A program made the translations under genes and the position numbers. Shown here in pieces: positions 2,953 through 11,005 of a DNA stretch of 64,000 nt. How positions within the stretch are numbered: position 1 is the first letter of the stretch; every line of letters starts with the position of its first letter. Below the pieces are notes generated by a model. That model was not told the origin of the DNA and did no database searches. It saw only the letters and a list, made by a program, of their open reading frames with translations. The DNA comes from Candidatus Poribacteria bacterium (GTDB taxonomy: Bacteria > Poribacteria > WGA-4E > WGA-3G). The stretch lies in NCBI GenBank assembly GCA_026706025.1, contig JAPOZO010000095.1, positions 62,001 through 126,000 of the forward strand, given 5' to 3'.

Positions 2953-4479
2953 TCAAAATTCAACCAAAAGCTGCGGAACAATTGTCGCATTTCGTGTTGA
3001 CTTTTCAATGTTATTCACCTGATAAACCAACCGTGCCAGCGCGCCTTCAGTAAAATGCCACGTCAATGCACCACCGAATGTTGTCCACAGTTCTGCATCA
3101 CGTGATCTAATAAAATTAAACGTGCTATACTTCCCCGTGTTCGGATTCCATACATCATATTTTAACCGAACATCTATAGTTTCTGTCAAGGGAATTTCCG
3201 CATGCAGATAGTACCCCTCCACTGTTGCTGTCCGATCCCCTTTTATTGGCGTTTGCGCGTATTTCAAGAGGTAGGTGTCCGTCCCGCGCACCCACTCAGC
3301 AGCAAGATCAAGTCGCCAAATTTTGAACTTTGTCGCGAGCCCGAATCGCCGTTTGTAAAACAGTGTAGATGGATTGACATCCCCGTTGTTGGGATTGAAA
3401 GGATAACTGTTGCCATCAAAGTAAGATCCACCAAACCATATCCTTTTGCCTAAGAGTGAAGGCGTGCCGTTAACATGCAGAAATACAGGTGGACTGTTAT
3501 TTCGGATTGGTTTCAAAATACCGCCACCGCTCCCGTGCGGACCGATTCGGATACCAGACTCCACAGTTCCGTCCGTGACGGTACGCAGTGAATCCGGTCC
3601 ATCTGCAAGCGATGCTACATAGGCAACCGGTCCGATATACCCATTCACCTGCAACCCACGGTCAGAGATGAAACCAATATTCTTTCTGACCAAGTTGTAC
3701 AAAGGGTTCGCGGCAGCATCCGACTTAGTATCAATGCCGAAAGCGTGCCGGAATCGTCCGATCTTGAGCGACGCGCCCTTCGGTAATATCGGCAGCCCTG
3801 TGAGAATCGCGTAAATGAACCCGTGATCATCCGCCACTTGCGTGCCGAGTGGCGACGTCGTTAGGAGTTGTTCTCCCAAAACACTCACATGATCGCCTAC
3901 ATTTGTTGTTACGACGAATTCAGCGACATGGATGAGTGTTGTCCCAGTACTCCAGTTGCTACCATCAGGCACTAAATCCTGTCCGCGAGTGATACGGCGG
4001 ATATCCAATGCACCACCAAAGACAAGATTTCCGAAAGCATCGCTAAGAAAACCAGAAGTATCCGCCTTTTGTGTTTCATCTGCATCACTGAAACTAAAGA
4101 TACTTTCATCATCCTCCACACGGGCATCATCTGTTTCAGAGGCATTTTTTATAGGTTCAACGTTTTCAGGCGTACTCGCCGCGTCACCCGGATAAGAGCG
4201 GGCAATAATCTCAACAAGATTACTAAATCCATCTTTATCAGAATCCTCCTCTGCGATTCTCAGAAAGGTCGATGGATTCATACCATTGTGTAAGAACGCT
4301 CTGCCGTAAGGATTCGGCGAATCGCCACCCTTTTTTGACGAATGGCAAACGTTGCAACCACCTGCCCACCTGTATTCAGCGCGGAACATCTTGTAGAATG
4401 CGGGCAGCGCAAACGCGGAGTGCTCTGCAATCAGCCCGCAGAAAAGTGCTGTTAAGCAAAACAGCAAAGTTTTACGCAT
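2953..4479 (-). CDS. Outer-membrane protein: heme c domain fused to a beta-barrel
   Basis: The 508-residue protein starts at ATG 4479 behind GAGGAA and has a signal peptide ending near residue 24. One heme-c motif, C42-x-x-C45-H46, is followed by a Ca-binding-like acidic loop (about residues 78-90). From about residue 180 the sequence has alternating hydrophobic/aromatic strands and ends in Phe, the usual signature of an outer-membrane barrel. It therefore looks like a monoheme domain joined to a porin-like barrel. A role in electron passage or redox sensing at the outer membrane is inference. It is gene five of six in the minus-strand operon. Confidence 0.75.
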   Translation of the reverse strand: MRKTLLFCLTALFCGLIAEHSAFALPAFYKMFRAEYRWAGGCNVCHSSKKGGDSPNPYGRAFLHNGMNPSTFLRIAEEDSDKDGFSNLVEIIARSYPGDAASTPENVEPIKNASETDDARVEDDESIFSFSDADETQKADTSGFLSDAFGNLVFGGALDIRRITRGQDLVPDGSNWSTGTTLIHVAEFVVTTNVGDHVSVLGEQLLTTSPLGTQVADDHGFIYAILTGLPILPKGASLKIGRFRHAFGIDTKSDAAANPLYNLVRKNIGFISDRGLQVNGYIGPVAYVASLADGPDSLRTVTDGTVESGIRIGPHGSGGGILKPIRNNSPPVFLHVNGTPSLLGKRIWFGGSYFDGNSYPFNPNNGDVNPSTLFYKRRFGLATKFKIWRLDLAAEWVRGTDTYLLKYAQTPIKGDRTATVEGYYLHAEIPLTETIDVRLKYDVWNPNTGKYSTFNFIRSRDAELWTTFGGALTWHFTEGALARLVYQVNNIEKSTRNATIVPQLLVEF

Positions 4480-4527: not shown

Positions 4528-5523
4528 TTAATATGTGTCCAAGTCAATCTCTTCCTCGCTGAATCGGAGGTGCGCCTGATTGACCAATTCAACAATAGCG
4601 TCCCACTGCTTGCGTGTCTCTTCTGAAACTCCTGCCGCCTCAAGTGTCTCCGCAAATTTAAGAAGAGTTTCACTAAATTTATCCTGCAGATAGACATATT
4701 CCTCTGTCTGATCGGCATTCTTCGGCGGTTCAAAATTTGAGATGCTCTTTGCATATTTAGCGAGTCGTTTCGCCGCTGCGGTGGCTTCCGTTTTGCCCAC
4801 CTTGTCGTCAAAGTAGTCAACGATCACAAAATAGTCATCTATCATCAACATCATGAGGGCTTTCAAGTCCTCGACTTCAGGCATCTCTTCTTCTTCAGGT
4901 ATCTCTTCTTTTGAAGGAACCGGCTCAGGCGTTTTTTCGGTATCGGGTTTCGGTTTCCGTTTGAGGAAGAGTGCATAACTCATGACCAATGTCTTTTTCG
5001 GAATCAAGGCAACGGCATTTGAAGCGGTCTCGTGTCCGTCAATAGTTTCAATACCTTCTCCAACCTTGAAGGTATCATCTATGCCCATACCGATGAATTG
5101 CTTGAGGAACTTTCCACCTGCAATTGCATCTGTTTCCTTGTGTTCATAGATTGCGACTTTTACGACTTTCCCTTTCATATCCAGTCCGACAGCCCCTTCA
5201 ATAACACCACGCGGCCCCTTGATGTCAGAGAACAAAACCAAGCCCATTGGCTTCTTTTTATCATTAAGCGGGATATAAAAAATGGGTTTCAGGTCTTCTG
5301 CTCGAAGTTTCGTTCCAAGTTCTTTCTCAATTGTGGTGATCTTTTCAGGGGTGAGTACGGCACTCCGCTGAACGAATTTTTTCGCCTTTGGAAAAATAGC
5401 TGCTAATTTCTGACCGGGCCATTCCGTTTCATGCGCGATACCAAGTAGTGGTGTGCTTACCATGAAAAAAATGAGGACCAATAGAACACCCGCCCGAGGC
5501 CGGCGGTAGATTTGGATAAACAT
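4528..5523 (-). CDS. FMN-binding-domain envelope protein
   Basis: ATG 5523 is chosen because AAGGAG sits 7 nt upstream; the open frame runs further but overlaps the preceding gene. The 331-residue protein has a signal/anchor segment at residues 11-30. Residues ~95-185 resemble the FMN-binding domain of RnfG/NosR-type proteins (GPRGVIEGAVGLD, then a Gly-rich stretch and IDGHETASNA). The last motif is where such proteins carry covalent FMN on Thr, but it departs from the usual D-[AG]-[IVT]-[ST]-G-A-[ST], so flavinylation is uncertain. A Glu/Pro-rich linker and a helical C-terminal domain follow. The heme and CxxU neighbours suggest an envelope electron-transfer role. Confidence 0.7.
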   Translation of the reverse strand: MFIQIYRRPRAGVLLVLIFFMVSTPLLGIAHETEWPGQKLAAIFPKAKKFVQRSAVLTPEKITTIEKELGTKLRAEDLKPIFYIPLNDKKKPMGLVLFSDIKGPRGVIEGAVGLDMKGKVVKVAIYEHKETDAIAGGKFLKQFIGMGIDDTFKVGEGIETIDGHETASNAVALIPKKTLVMSYALFLKRKPKPDTEKTPEPVPSKEEIPEEEEMPEVEDLKALMMLMIDDYFVIVDYFDDKVGKTEATAAAKRLAKYAKSISNFEPPKNADQTEEYVYLQDKFSETLLKFAETLEAAGVSEETRKQWDAIVELVNQAHLRFSEEEIDLDTY

Positions 5524-5581
5524 CTGTAATCTCCTTATTATGACGCTGTTACGCCACGCGTGTCGCAACAGCAAGTTCACT

Positions 5582-6622
5582 CTATTCCGTAACTTCGACC
5601 ATGAAACTGGGCCATAGGATTTGGTCGCCATGTTTAAGTTGTCCAAAGATCTGATAAACGCCAGCTTCGGGAAATGTTGTCATGAGCATCACAGTGGGAC
5701 CAAATTTCTCCGGCGTGATGCCCTGATGCTGATGCCCAGTTGCGGATGTTTTTTCCATTTTATGTCCGGCGTGTGGATCCTCTTTCATTATCTTGCTGGC
5801 ATCTTCAGTTCCGAGAACTGTCCCGTGCGTATGTACAACACCATCCAGGCGTGTGCTGACAATAGCGAAGTGCATCGGTGCATCCAAGAATGGAACGAGA
5901 TCTGTAAGCGGTTTTCCGTCCTGCGAAAAGTGATAGGTAATGTGAACCATTTCACCTGCTTTAATCCGATCTGGTGCCTCCATTTTCGCCTGATATGTAG
6001 AAGCACCTTCTCCATCGGTTAAAGAAACCGCCTTTGTATACCTATCACCGCCTTCATCAGTATAACCGAAAACAACTTTTTCACGGCGGAAATCCTGCAC
6101 CGTATCCGTCAATTTTTCCTCACCCGCGACATCCACATATAGATATTTCGCGAATTCGGCATCCGCGGTCATTACATCAACAGCGAGGATGTATTTTCCT
6201 GCCGCTGGAAATGTAAAGTGGACGGTATACATGCCTTCCAATTCCATCATAATGTCACGGGATTCAAAATCCTCGGGATGAATATGCCCGATGATCTGTA
6301 AATTCTCACTGACCACGAGTACATGCAGGACGCGAGCATGATGCACCATGAGATCGGTAACCGGTTCACCTTTTGCATCGGTAAGATGAAACGTGAGTGT
6401 CGTTGGTGTTCCTGCCTGAATAGTTTGCGGTTCGGTGTGAAGCATAACACTGAGAGATGAAGTGTTGTGCATCTTATGGGCATTATGTCCGACATGCTCT
6501 TTAGCGAAACTTACTTCAACAAGAAACAGCACACCAACAGCTATCACCCCTATGCAATATAGCAATTCAAATTTCGCTATAATACGAAAAATCGAAAAAA
6601 AAGGGAAATTCCGGGATTGCAT
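5582..6622 (-). CDS. Membrane-anchored His-rich protein with two YtkA-like domains
   Basis: The 346-residue protein starts at ATG 6622 behind GGAGG. A hydrophobic segment (residues 20-40) is followed by a His/Met-rich stretch (HVGHNAHKMHN). Two related beta-sandwich units follow, each of the YtkA-like kind, marked by HIHPED (113-118) and HTHG (264-267). A further His cluster near residue 283 (HAGHKM, GHQHQG) suggests binding of copper or another soft metal. No catalytic motif is seen. It lies 18 bp after the probable selenoprotein gene and 58 bp before the FMN-binding gene, in the same operon. Metal handling is inference from the His/Met pattern. Confidence 0.7.
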   Translation of the reverse strand: MQSRNFPFFSIFRIIAKFELLYCIGVIAVGVLFLVEVSFAKEHVGHNAHKMHNTSSLSVMLHTEPQTIQAGTPTTLTFHLTDAKGEPVTDLMVHHARVLHVLVVSENLQIIGHIHPEDFESRDIMMELEGMYTVHFTFPAAGKYILAVDVMTADAEFAKYLYVDVAGEEKLTDTVQDFRREKVVFGYTDEGGDRYTKAVSLTDGEGASTYQAKMEAPDRIKAGEMVHITYHFSQDGKPLTDLVPFLDAPMHFAIVSTRLDGVVHTHGTVLGTEDASKIMKEDPHAGHKMEKTSATGHQHQGITPEKFGPTVMLMTTFPEAGVYQIFGQLKHGDQILWPSFMVEVTE

Positions 6623-6640: not shown

Positions 6641-7690
6641 TTAAAACGCATAAGATGTGTTCAGGGAAACTAAAGTGCCGAATTCAATTGCATCGCCTTC
6701 ATTATAAAGTGTCTTTTGCGTCAACGGGAACATGACGTTAGCAGATACGGAAATATCGTTCAGCGTTACCATGGACAGACCCAATGCTGCCATGGTATAA
6801 CGTAGCCCAGTATTAATATCGCGTTCCCCAGCCCATGAGGCAGCGGATTGATAAAATCCGAGATAGTTTCCGTTAAATGAGAACCAATCAAAGAGACGAT
6901 ACGTAAAGCCAGCCGTATAGCTCAACTCCACTGGACCTTGATAAGTCTTGCTATTTTCGTAGAAAGGCAACACTCCACGTGCAGAAGCAGTGATCATCAA
7001 ACCCCGGTAGAGAGGTAAACTGTAACGCAAATTGGCAAGCGGGTTAAAGGTACCCGTCCCGAACTGGATATGGAGGTGTTCAATGCCTCTATCTCCAAGT
7101 TTCCAGGGGTTATCCTCAGTTCTGCCGGTTGGGATCGTCGTGCCTAACCGGGCAAACAATACGTCACCCGTTTTAAAAAGTCCGCGAATTTCATAGCCTA
7201 AGAACAAATCTGAATCCGCGAGTCCGGTATAGGTTTCATTTCGATGATGGATATCCCTACTCCGTAAAATCGCATCCCTCTCTTCAGCACTGACCGGCTT
7301 AATCCACTCAACACTTGCTTCCTGGTTTTTGACTGCATACGGAACATTCGCATGCAACACCCACTGGTCGCTAAGTGAGTAATGTAACCCAACATCAATT
7401 CGGTAAGTACTCAACGCTACGTGGTGCCGATGTAAAGGAGCATCCACCACTTCTCCTGTTGGTGAAAGTCCTCTTGATTCAAGATGACCCCCTTTTGCAT
7501 CAGGGGACATTAACATATTAACATTCACTTGAAATTGATCTATCTCTTTTGAAGCCAAACTGACTTCACTCATCATACCGCTGGGCGGTAAGACGGGGTT
7601 GCTTCAAGCGGGACAACTTTCTTGGGCAAACCCAAAAGAAACAAACACCCAATTGAGCAATATCACGTGTAAAAACAAACGCATTTTCAT
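6641..7690 (-). CDS. Outer-membrane barrel with in-frame TGA in a CPA-TGA motif: selenoprotein candidate
   Basis: An open frame from Met at 7576 extends upstream in the same frame to ATG 7690, interrupted only by TGA at 7604-7606. Read through, the start encodes a complete Sec signal peptide (residues 1-22), then Cys26-Pro-Ala-TGA29, then a long barrel-like domain ending in Phe (349 residues). Reading TGA as selenocysteine gives a CxxU motif where many secreted barrel proteins carry CxxC directly after the signal peptide. Without readthrough the barrel would have no export signal. A hairpin lies at the right place after the TGA (7571-7595). The alternatives are a sequence error or a nonsense mutation. 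The upstream leader has AGGA and a 10-bp hairpin. The operon neighbours are metal/redox-type envelope proteins. Confidence 0.6.
7571..7595 (-). other. SECIS-like hairpin just after the in-frame TGA
   Basis: Starting 9 nt after the TGA, the transcript can form an outer 4-bp stem (CGTC/GATG with one G-U), a T-T mismatch and a perfect 6-bp stem TACCGC/GCGGTA around loop CCA. If the closing C-G pair opens, a G lies at the loop start 18 nt after the TGA, within the range known for bacterial SECIS elements. The loop does not show the best-known GU pattern, so the assignment is tentative. Confidence 0.4.
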
Positions 7691-7872: not shown

Positions 7873-8322
7873 TTAGCACGAGTAGCACGAGACAAAAGGA
7901 GGTCCTCTACGGGTTAGAGGGTGACCGGGGAAAAGTGTAGAAACTAAAGGGACGGAAGAAGTCTTAAAAGACTCTTCGAGGGCAACAGGTAAAGTCGCCG
8001 AGATCGGAAGAATCGAGATCAGAGACTGTCCGATCAATTCACGGAATTCGGGGATGTTGTCTCTGATGTCTGGAAGCACAAGTTCCAAATCAGTTGCACA
8101 GCACAGCTTACCACTTTCCAATGGATTTCCGGCTTCACCCGCTGTGTCTGTTTTAGTGTTTTGGCAGCAAGTTCCGCGGGTGCCAGTATCTCCACTCAGC
8201 ATTTCCTGAGACACATCATGGCAGAACTTTTGTTCAAAAGTCGCACAGAGGAGTGGGCACACCGAATAGATGTACAATAACCCCACGAGTAAGATAAGAA
8301 CCTGCCGATGTTTTCGCAACAT
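7873..8322 (-). CDS. Small secreted cysteine-rich protein
   Basis: ATG 8322 starts a 149-residue protein with a signal segment (residues 8-27) and many cysteines (22, 26, 34, 52, 53, 74, 75, 146, 149), including two CC pairs and a C-terminal CYSC. I do not recognise the family. GGAG lies 11 nt upstream of the start, a weakly placed ribosome site. It is the first gene of the minus-strand operon behind a sigma70-like promoter at 8380-8409. The paired cysteines would suit metal binding or disulfide exchange, in keeping with the CxxU, heme and flavin proteins that follow. Confidence 0.65.
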   Translation of the reverse strand: MLRKHRQVLILLVGLLYIYSVCPLLCATFEQKFCHDVSQEMLSGDTGTRGTCCQNTKTDTAGEAGNPLESGKLCCATDLELVLPDIRDNIPEFRELIGQSLISILPISATLPVALEESFKTSSVPLVSTLFPGHPLTRRGPPFVSCYSC

Positions 8323-8684: not shown

Positions 8685-8764
8685 ATTGACAAACCGCACG
8701 CTAAAACTAACATTCTGAAGTGTCGCGCTCCATTTTCCACGATAACAACAACGGAGGCAATATC

Positions 8765-9730
8765 ATGGCGTACATTAAGGTTCCAAAAGGATGGGAAATC
8801 CCCGAAAATCAGGTAACATCTGAGTCAGACTACATCAATCGCCGGAAATTCATCAAAGATTTGGGATTGGCAAGCGCAGGTACACTGTTATTTTCCACTT
8901 CAAATGCTTGTGCCCAAGGCAGAGGGGTTGAAAAACAATTAGAACCTTTTCGCGCGCAAACACTTGCCGCAGAAAACAACGCAAATTTCACTGTGGAAAG
9001 ACAGATGACTGACGAAGTTATCGCTGCTACCTACAACAATTACTATGAATTCACCACTTCAAAGAGCACTGTTTGGAAAAAAGTGGAAAAATTCAAGACG
9101 CGCCCTTGGGAAATCGAAATATCTGGGCTCGTCGAAAAGCCGATGACGATAGATGTAGACGAACTGATAAAACAGATGCCACTTGAAGAACGGATTTATC
9201 GGTTCCGTTGTGTCGAAGCGTGGGCAATGGTAGTACCGTGGATCGGTTTCCCGATGAAAGCGTTACTTGAAAAAGTACAGCCTAAAGCTGAAGCGCAATA
9301 TGTGCGAATGCTTACATTTTTGGATGCTGACATGGCACCACAACAACGAGATCCTTATCTGCCGTGGCCCTATTTTGAAGGGCTAACACTTGCCGAGGCG
9401 ATGAATGACTTGACGCTACTCACCGTCGGCATCTATGGACATATTTTACCGCCACAGCATGGCGCACCCATCCGGCTCATCGTGCCTTGGAAGTACGGGT
9501 TCAAAAGTATCAAATCCATCGTTAGTATCGAATTGACGGATCAACAGCCGCGCACCTTCTGGAACACGCTTGCACCAAGGGAGTACGGCTTTGAAGCAAA
9601 CGTCAACCCTAACGTCCCACATCCACGTTGGTCCCAAGCCAGCGAGCGGATGATTGGCACTGGCAAAAGACTCCCCACCTTAATCTATAACGGTTATGGC
9701 GATGCTGTCGCGCACCTTTACGAAAGGTAA
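8765..9730 (+). CDS. msrP: Periplasmic molybdopterin oxidoreductase, MsrP/YedY type
   Basis: ATG 8765 is preferred over 8720 because GGAGG lies 8 nt upstream; it gives 321 residues, close to E. coli MsrP. A twin-arginine signal (NRRKFIKD, residues 25-32) sends the folded enzyme to the periplasm. The sulfite-oxidase-type core shows the molybdenum-ligand Cys in FRCVEAW (C149), then GFPMKALL, PWKYGFKSIKSI and a C-terminal YGFEANVNP. MsrP reduces methionine sulfoxide in envelope proteins. Its usual heme partner MsrQ is not adjacent, so the electron donor must be elsewhere or different. A serpin gene follows after 18 bp and is probably co-transcribed. Confidence 0.88.
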   Translation: MAYIKVPKGWEIPENQVTSESDYINRRKFIKDLGLASAGTLLFSTSNACAQGRGVEKQLEPFRAQTLAAENNANFTVERQMTDEVIAATYNNYYEFTTSKSTVWKKVEKFKTRPWEIEISGLVEKPMTIDVDELIKQMPLEERIYRFRCVEAWAMVVPWIGFPMKALLEKVQPKAEAQYVRMLTFLDADMAPQQRDPYLPWPYFEGLTLAEAMNDLTLLTVGIYGHILPPQHGAPIRLIVPWKYGFKSIKSIVSIELTDQQPRTFWNTLAPREYGFEANVNPNVPHPRWSQASERMIGTGKRLPTLIYNGYGDAVAHLYER

Positions 9731-9748: not shown

Positions 9749-11005
9749 ATGAACAAGAAACAGACAAGTGGAAAATCTTTTCTATGCTTGACCTATCTGG
9801 TTTCGTTAATATTTGCCGGATGTAATGATCTGGGTGCTATCTTTCGTGATCAGGTACAAGTCGAACCTGAAACTATCTCTATTGATACAAACGTGGCCAC
9901 GGCAAATACGCAATTCGGTTTTGATCTGTTCAATGACATCCGCAAAACCGAGGAAGATAAAAATATTTTTATTTCTCCGCTCAGTATCTCTATTGCTCTA
10001 GCAATGACTTTAAATGGAGCATCCGGTGAAACCCAACAGGCGATGACGAATACACTGCAACTAAAAGGGTTAGACTTCGCATCAATAAACACCGGTTATG
10101 CCGGATTGCGCCATGCCCTTCAAACATCAGATCCAAAAGTGACACTCACGATTGCAAACTCACTCTGGGCACGCCAAGATGTTCCGTTCAAGCAGGATTT
10201 CCTGCAGCGAAACACCCAATTTTTCGGAGCGGAGGTCTCAACACTCGATTTCACGGCCCCAAACACGCTACCAACAATTAACCAGTGGGTAAACACCAAT
10301 ACCAACGGCAAAATTACAAAAATCCTTGATGAAATCAATCCGGATATGGTGTTATTTCTGATTAATGCCATCTATTTCAAAGGAACATGGCAGACAGAAT
10401 TCGACCCCTCTCACACGCGCGACGGAATCTTCCATCTTGCAACTGGTGCCGAAAAGCAGATACCGATGATGACAAGAACCGGTGATTACCCGTACTACGA
10501 AAACCATGAGGAAAAATTCCAAGCGATTAGCCTTCCTTACGGCGATGGACGAATGAGCATGTACATCTTCCTTCCCTATCGTGAATCTGACCTCAACACC
10601 TTTTTAAATAGTCTAAACACTGAGAATTGGGAGAATTGGATATCGCAGCTTCACGAACAGGAAGTATTTCTTAGCATGCCCAAATTTAAGTTAGAATATG
10701 AAAAAACGCTTAACAATCCGCTGCAATCCCTCGGTATGGGGATAGCATTTGCATCTGGGCTTGCTGATTTCAGTCGGATGGCAGATTTAGAAGTTTTGGG
10801 TCAAAACTTGTATATCGGAGAAGTACGCCATAAAGCTGTCGTCGAAGTCAATGAAGAAGGCACCGAAGCCGCAGCAGTCACCAGTGTTGGAATTCGTGCA
10901 ACGAGCGCGCCACCCGCGTTCATGACAAACCGACCATTCTTCTTCGCGATTCGTGATAATGAGACAAAAACTGTACTATTTATGGGCAGTGTCGTAGATC
11001 CTTAG
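9749..11005 (+). CDS. Serpin-family protease inhibitor, lipoprotein
   Basis: The 418-residue protein has an N-terminal lipoprotein signal (LIFAGC), so it is likely membrane-anchored outside the cytoplasm. The serpin fold is clear: FGFDLFNDI, NIFISPLSISIALAM, NAIYFKGTW and the C-terminal NRPFFFAIRD. The reactive-loop hinge EEGTEAAAVTS (from residue 369) keeps the small residues needed for strand insertion, so it should be inhibitory. Counting from the hinge, the scissile bond falls near T385-S386, with Arg at P3. Inhibition of a serine or cysteine protease is inference. GGAG lies 11 nt upstream of the start. Confidence 0.92.
   Translation: MNKKQTSGKSFLCLTYLVSLIFAGCNDLGAIFRDQVQVEPETISIDTNVATANTQFGFDLFNDIRKTEEDKNIFISPLSISIALAMTLNGASGETQQAMTNTLQLKGLDFASINTGYAGLRHALQTSDPKVTLTIANSLWARQDVPFKQDFLQRNTQFFGAEVSTLDFTAPNTLPTINQWVNTNTNGKITKILDEINPDMVLFLINAIYFKGTWQTEFDPSHTRDGIFHLATGAEKQIPMMTRTGDYPYYENHEEKFQAISLPYGDGRMSMYIFLPYRESDLNTFLNSLNTENWENWISQLHEQEVFLSMPKFKLEYEKTLNNPLQSLGMGIAFASGLADFSRMADLEVLGQNLYIGEVRHKAVVEVNEEGTEAAAVTSVGIRATSAPPAFMTNRPFFFAIRDNETKTVLFMGSVVDP

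Follow-up and report, generated by a model that had tools for sequence, protein, structure and literature searches.

Predicted selenocysteine in a Poribacterial outer-membrane barrel family, with a possible role in soft-metal handling

We describe a predicted selenoprotein gene in a 64,000-nucleotide stretch of a Candidatus Poribacteria genome (contig JAPOZO010000095.1; the whole stretch is called the window here). The gene lies on the minus strand at 6641–7690 and encodes 349 amino acids counting selenocysteine (Sec; U in motifs), with a Sec-pathway signal peptide, a mature N-terminus reading QES-C-P-A-U-SNP and a 12-stranded outer-membrane β-barrel. Our best explanation, to which we assign a probability of about 0.62, is that the product is a selenoprotein channel with a Cys/Sec soft-metal site at its N-terminus. 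The family is not among the 119 prokaryotic selenoprotein families of the 2026 catalogue and would add to them a new one, marked by one or two Sec at the N-terminus of a secreted barrel in sponge-associated Poribacteria. Since the catalogue lists two other outer-membrane barrel selenoproteins, an FCYXU TonB receptor and the MtrB-like GSU2204, a barrel of the outer membrane with Sec is no novelty in itself. Full-text searches of open-licence papers found none on Poribacteria with selenoproteins, and two in which Poribacteria and selenocysteine occur together, in a single mention each.

Conservation of the in-frame TGA and the selenocysteine machinery

The frame runs from an ATG at 7688–7690 to a stop at 6641–6643 and has a single break, a TGA at 7604–7606 (all on the minus strand). 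A preliminary description of this DNA had proposed that this codon is the only interruption between signal peptide and barrel, and both its coordinates and its motif proved correct. The translation reads MKMRLFLHVILLNWVFVSFGFAQESCPA-U-SNPVLPPSGMMSEVSLASKE..., with SNPVLPPSG... following the TGA, and the first residue of C-P-A-U is specified by a TGT (Cys) codon at 7613–7615 (minus strand), where a paralogous family has TGA (Sec). Open reading frame (ORF) calling in the window yields just a 311-residue remainder of the gene; standard gene calling ends such genes at the UGA, so that signal peptide and motif are lost.

Over all loci compared, the distinct sequences comprise 34 with CPAU, 55 with UGAU, one with CSAU and 12 with CPAC at the motif. 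Among 60 related genomes, a single-TGA orthologue is found in almost all species of the genus and a two-TGA paralogue (55–59% identity, reading QES-U-G-A-U-SNP) in most of those species; the window's own genome also encodes the paralogue family. The TGA stands at the same alignment position in all 34 distinct CPAU orthologues, and both TGAs are present in all 55 distinct UGAU paralogues. Across 85 Poribacterial genomes, every copy with an N-terminus has one or two TGAs, or three in one case, and no TGA-free copy with an intact N-terminus was found, the TGA-free matches being fragments that lack it. Upstream of the TGA the third codon position varies most (0.25 vs. 0.18 and 0.10), and the TGA itself shows zero variation. 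This coding-type variation, together with the invariance of the codon and its conservation across copies, indicates that the TGA is not there by chance, and its presence in closed or nearly closed assemblies (G005, G010, G018, G021 and G028) argues that it is no read error.

Orthologues with Cys at this position occur in Bacteroidota (Saprospiraceae, Flavobacteriales, Flammeovirgaceae and Terrimonas), where CPACSNP, with a TGC or TGT codon, directly follows the signal peptide. These distant relatives bear out the earlier suggestion that C-P-A-U is the CxxU form of a CxxC motif, and Poribacterial relatives keep TGA at the codon. Of the three conditions under which the preliminary description would have dropped the selenoprotein (no Sec machinery, TGT or TGC reads at the codon, close relatives with unrelated sequence at the motif), none was borne out. 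The preliminary description had also pointed to selA, selB, selC and selD as genes to look for, and the source genome (a 6.27-Mb draft) has all four above curated cut-offs: selB adjoins the tRNA-Sec gene (selC) on contig 84, selA lies on contig 89, and selD, on contig 56, carries a TGA itself at the usual place (KCAGUASK). Across the phylum, selA exceeds its curated cut-off in 72/85 genomes and the barrel gene is found in 67/85. The original observation has grown to include a double-Sec paralogue, a wider taxonomic spread, an RNA element and a heavy-metal gene context.

In a midpoint-rooted tree, CPAU sequences form one fully supported clade nested among UGAU sequences. From this grouping, the window's CPAU form most likely derives from a double-Sec ancestor in which the first Sec reverted to Cys, and CSAU is a separate change in another family. 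No relative of the barrel family was found in viral contigs, nor in plasmids when these were queried with a Cys orthologue.

Conserved hairpins downstream of the TGA

Past the UGA, at 7550–7568 (minus strand), the transcript can form a hairpin resembling a selenocysteine insertion sequence (SECIS), with an 8-bp stem and a GUU loop (UGAAGUCA-GUU-UGGCUUCA) that begins 43 nucleotides (nt) past the UGA (minimum free energy, MFE, −7.2 kcal/mol; z −4.3). The model of bacterial SECIS elements (bSECIS) has a stem of 4–16 bp, a G in the first two loop positions and an N1-N2 pair, and the predicted hairpin fits the stem and loop of this consensus. An equivalent hairpin with a three-base G[GU]N loop, usually on 8 bp, is present in 79/84 distinct Sec genes, its loop starting mostly 40 or 43 nt past the UGA. 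Compensatory changes affect four of the eight stem pairs (for example A-U to G-C and C-G to U-A), and covariation is stronger than in any of 500 shuffles or any slid control, although no probability can be attached to this because the aligned rows are related. The stem is retained even where the encoded peptide is EVGSTS instead of EVSLAS.

A second conserved hairpin lies between the UGA and the SECIS-like one (7571–7595, minus strand; MFE −11.6, z −4.7). Its equivalent in the paralogues is 91% paired, vs. at most 57% when slid. This hairpin may serve as a compact spacer, bringing the UGA and the SECIS-like hairpin effectively closer together. Folded together with the UGA, both hairpins reach −20.5 kcal/mol. 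Compared with random synonymous recoding, folding energies are just moderately low (mean z −1.6 for CPAU, −1.2 for UGAU and −0.3 for Cys genes), and we therefore rely on covariation for the RNA element. Elsewhere in the window's genome, the Sec codons of selD and of genes encoding HMA domains have possible hairpins about 12–23 nt downstream, their loops rich in G.

Barrel structure, gene neighbourhood and proposed function

The AlphaFold2 model, run on an alignment of 33 relatives, has 12 main strands from residue 53 on (predicted local distance difference test, pLDDT, 80.2; predicted TM-score, pTM, 0.76). Its best Foldseek matches are FapF (E 7e-12) and the COG4313 channel 4rl8 (E 8e-11, probability 1.00), which backs the barrel named in the preliminary description. 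The window protein has no Pfam match and no meaningful NCBIfam match, the PF13557 profile misses it and matches 6/33 family members weakly (best E 1.1e-4), and a sequence search of PDB returned chance matches only. Invariant residues include H69, H87, H89, H148, H149, H205 and H207, which are possible metal ligands, and the Cys/Sec positions are nearly invariant. In the solved COG4313 channel, about 14 N-terminal residues enter the lumen and block it, and that family has been implicated in the uptake of hydrophobics (PMC4493636). Signal-peptide cleavage before QES would make C-P-A-U residues 4–7 of the mature protein, within an N-terminal segment of this lumenal type.

The gene's immediate upstream partner, at 7873–8322 (minus strand), encodes a Cys-rich secreted protein of 149 amino acids with no Pfam or NCBIfam match, and stands beside the CPAU barrel in 27/27 loci by tblastn (26 by ORF clustering). 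We considered this protein as a selenoprotein in its own right and rejected the idea, as the gene contains no conserved in-frame TGA. In 18/27 CPAU loci the next genes are for a YHS protein, an outer-membrane efflux protein of OEP type and a CusB-type adaptor bearing heavy-metal-binding domains; 15 of those 18 loci then have, within the flanking DNA examined, a resistance-nodulation-division (RND) pump. The window locus belongs to another group of seven, in which the downstream genes (all on the minus strand here) encode a YtkA-like periplasmic protein, immediately next to the barrel gene (5582–6622; PF13115), an FMN_bind or RnfG-like protein (4528–5646; PF04205 at the cut-off, weak rnfG) and a secreted protein with a CxxCH haem motif, related to GEGP diheme proteins (2953–4479; NF041762 at E 2.5e-15, below cut-off). 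Neither merA nor merT(P) was seen by the window gene. Also in the window, a serpin gene (9749–11005, plus strand) adjoins an MsrP-type molybdoenzyme gene (8720–9730).

In Bacteroidota, the Cys barrel gene directly follows a gene for an HMA-thioredoxin fusion in 13/13 loci, and the fusion (L140:7351–8001, plus strand, and its equivalents) is probably a functional partner of the Cys barrel. Within the flanking DNA examined, MerTP genes accompany 8/13 of these loci (one weakly, at 25% identity), ArsR-type regulators 7/13 and MerA 3/13. The neighbours of the CPAU and Cys orthologues, together with the soft-metal chemistry of Sec and Cys, lead us to favour a metal role for the barrel family, though not strongly.

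Other genes of the same genome also place predicted Sec in metal-binding domains. One encodes a secreted protein that consists in part of five HMA repeats in tandem (L162:4694–6073, plus strand; G000:C30:77355–78572). Four of the repeats have an in-frame TGA and read GMTUGGC, the other reads GMVCDAC, and the protein is a predicted four-Sec metal carrier; the proteins listed in the 2026 catalogue have three Sec at most. Copies with three TGAs occur in four other genomes, and single-HMA copies with one TGA occur across the phylum. A WD40-type protein (L164:2847–4505, plus strand; G000:C10) with an N-terminal CxxCH and a C-terminal HMA domain reading GMTUGAC is a further predicted selenoprotein. 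Sec in the HMA domains of this genome favours a metal theme for the barrel.

We infer a mechanism in which SelB and tRNA-Sec would actually insert selenocysteine at the UGA, directed by the SECIS-like hairpin, and the product would be exported by way of its signal peptide, to form in the outer membrane a channel of COG4313/FapF type with 12 strands. The mature protein would probably start QES-C-P-A-U, placing the Cys/Sec pair on the N-terminal arm, the part that is folded into the lumen in the solved COG4313 channel. There the pair (Sec-Sec in the paralogue), perhaps together with invariant His residues, would bind a soft metal (Hg, Cu or Ag); this site, at the periplasmic mouth of the channel, would gate transport across the outer membrane in the direction of either uptake or efflux, and the metal would pass to periplasmic thiol/selenol carriers. 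If the metal role is true, the barrel could be the point at which metal enters or leaves through the outer membrane in mercury and copper systems, and selenium would be tied to metal handling in sponge symbionts.

Alternative explanations and known systems

Several observations weigh against a selenoprotein channel with a soft-metal site. Regarding Sec insertion, the SECIS-like hairpin falls outside the spacing and energy limits of the bSECIS model, lying about 40–46 nt from the UGA, past the usual 16–37 nt (a distance stated for most, not all, elements; PMC13188914), and reaching −7.2 alone against an energy limit of −7.5 kcal/mol; an Rfam search matched none of the known SECIS families there. 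One paralogue copy (L054, G029:C5) has, as its third, a TGA in place of a conserved Trp codon (RUFDAQ instead of RWFDAQ), which may be an error, a pseudogene or readthrough. Regarding the metal role, the first 50 residues, the N-terminal arm (26–50) included, are modelled at low confidence; the window's YtkA, FMN_bind and haem-motif genes are no metal-efflux operon; and the UGAU paralogue sits by a peptide ATP-binding cassette (ABC) system, with an aldo-keto reductase and a family-5 solute-binding protein nearby. Given these two gene contexts, the evidence for a metal role does not extend to all copies. Among the 60 genomes, no Poribacterial MerA match exceeds the curated cut-off, all scoring lower, and we therefore do not claim a MerA partner.

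Apart from that spacing and, marginally, that energy, all commonly used computational criteria for bacterial selenoproteins agree: an in-frame UGA conserved along with its flanks, selA, selB, selC and selD, Cys homologues, and a bSECIS-shaped stem and loop. On this footing the UGA at 7604–7606 almost certainly encodes a predicted selenocysteine. That it is instead a genuine stop, leaving a peptide of 28 residues or a shortened barrel that starts again from the in-frame ATG that follows it in the window copy (7574–7576), is very improbable. Such a restart would cost an outer-membrane protein its signal peptide, and the double-TGA paralogues, the Cys orthologues, the coding constraint 5′ of the TGA, the hairpin and the complete sel machinery all support readthrough as Sec, which the preliminary description had also preferred. 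Less probable still is a sequencing error, a pseudogene or a TGA read as another residue such as Trp. The extra TGA of L054 would suit an error or an altered code, but the window's codon recurs in dozens of independent assemblies, closed genomes included, the pattern of variation is intact and of purifying type, the aligned residue in orthologues is Cys and never Trp, and tRNA-Sec and SelB are present. We therefore reject truncation or restart, pseudogene, sequencing error and altered code on the conserved TGA, the Cys orthologues and the variation pattern.

The main rival to the metal role accepts the selenoprotein and takes the Cys-Sec pair as a thiol/selenol redox centre, not a metal ligand, serving periplasmic disulfide/selenenylsulfide chemistry, for instance the reduction of peroxide or protein thiols or the redox-switched opening of the channel. 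Motifs of the CxxU and UxxU kind are typically redox motifs (PMC13188914), every Bacteroidota orthologue adjoins a partner with a thioredoxin domain, and the MsrP gene and the haem-motif/FMN_bind cluster lie near the window copy. However, in that partner the thioredoxin domain is joined to an HMA domain, which binds metal, the orthologues are grouped with MerTP, MerA, ArsR and CusBA-type genes, and the CxxU opens the mature barrel protein, outside any thioredoxin fold, so we regard a redox centre as unlikely, if well short of negligible. A selenoprotein channel whose substrate is organic or hydrophobic, as with other COG4313 proteins, and in which Sec does no more than stabilise the plug, is less likely again: the Foldseek match to a family implicated in hydrophobics uptake (PMC4493636) and the peptide-type ABC genes adjoining the double-Sec paralogue would fit it, but metal genes stand beside both CPAU and CPAC copies, and the His residues are invariant and the Cys/Sec residues nearly so.

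Our preferred explanation, the selenoprotein channel with a soft-metal site, can be set beside several known systems. FapF (PDB 5o65, 5o67 and 5o68) gives the best Foldseek matches but exports amyloid subunits, and no such genes were recognised beside the barrel gene. The COG4313/Phenol_MetA_deg family (PF13557), represented by Pput2725 (PDB 4rl8), shares the 12-stranded barrel and the Foldseek match, whereas identity to the window protein, itself without a Pfam match, is about 11%; we know of no Cys/Sec pair in a COG4313 N-terminal plug. The FCYXU-type TonB-dependent receptor (NF049945) and the GSU2204 MtrB/PioB-like barrel (NF041027) likewise have predicted Sec in an outer-membrane barrel (PMC13188914), but differ in barrel type and motif, and neither the window protein nor the paralogue matches either of these NCBIfam models. 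Sec in a soft-metal context is also found in the UxxU metal-binding protein NF041115, the MerT/CopZ-like NF045683 and Sao proteins, which, however, are either small HMA domains or components of the inner membrane or of ABC systems, and not outer-membrane channels.

A further comparison is with mer and cus operons: Cys orthologues stand with MerTP, MerA and ArsR genes and CPAU copies with CusCBA-like genes. Among standard mer components we know of no outer-membrane channel. In a survey of mer systems the outer membrane appears just as a boundary in a figure legend (PMC8261052). We tentatively put forward a selenium-based outer-membrane soft-metal gate, a lumenal N-terminal plug with a Cys-Sec or Sec-Sec site working alongside multi-Sec HMA carriers, which, if true, would be a dedicated outer-membrane step in mercury or copper handling without counterpart in the described mer or cus systems.
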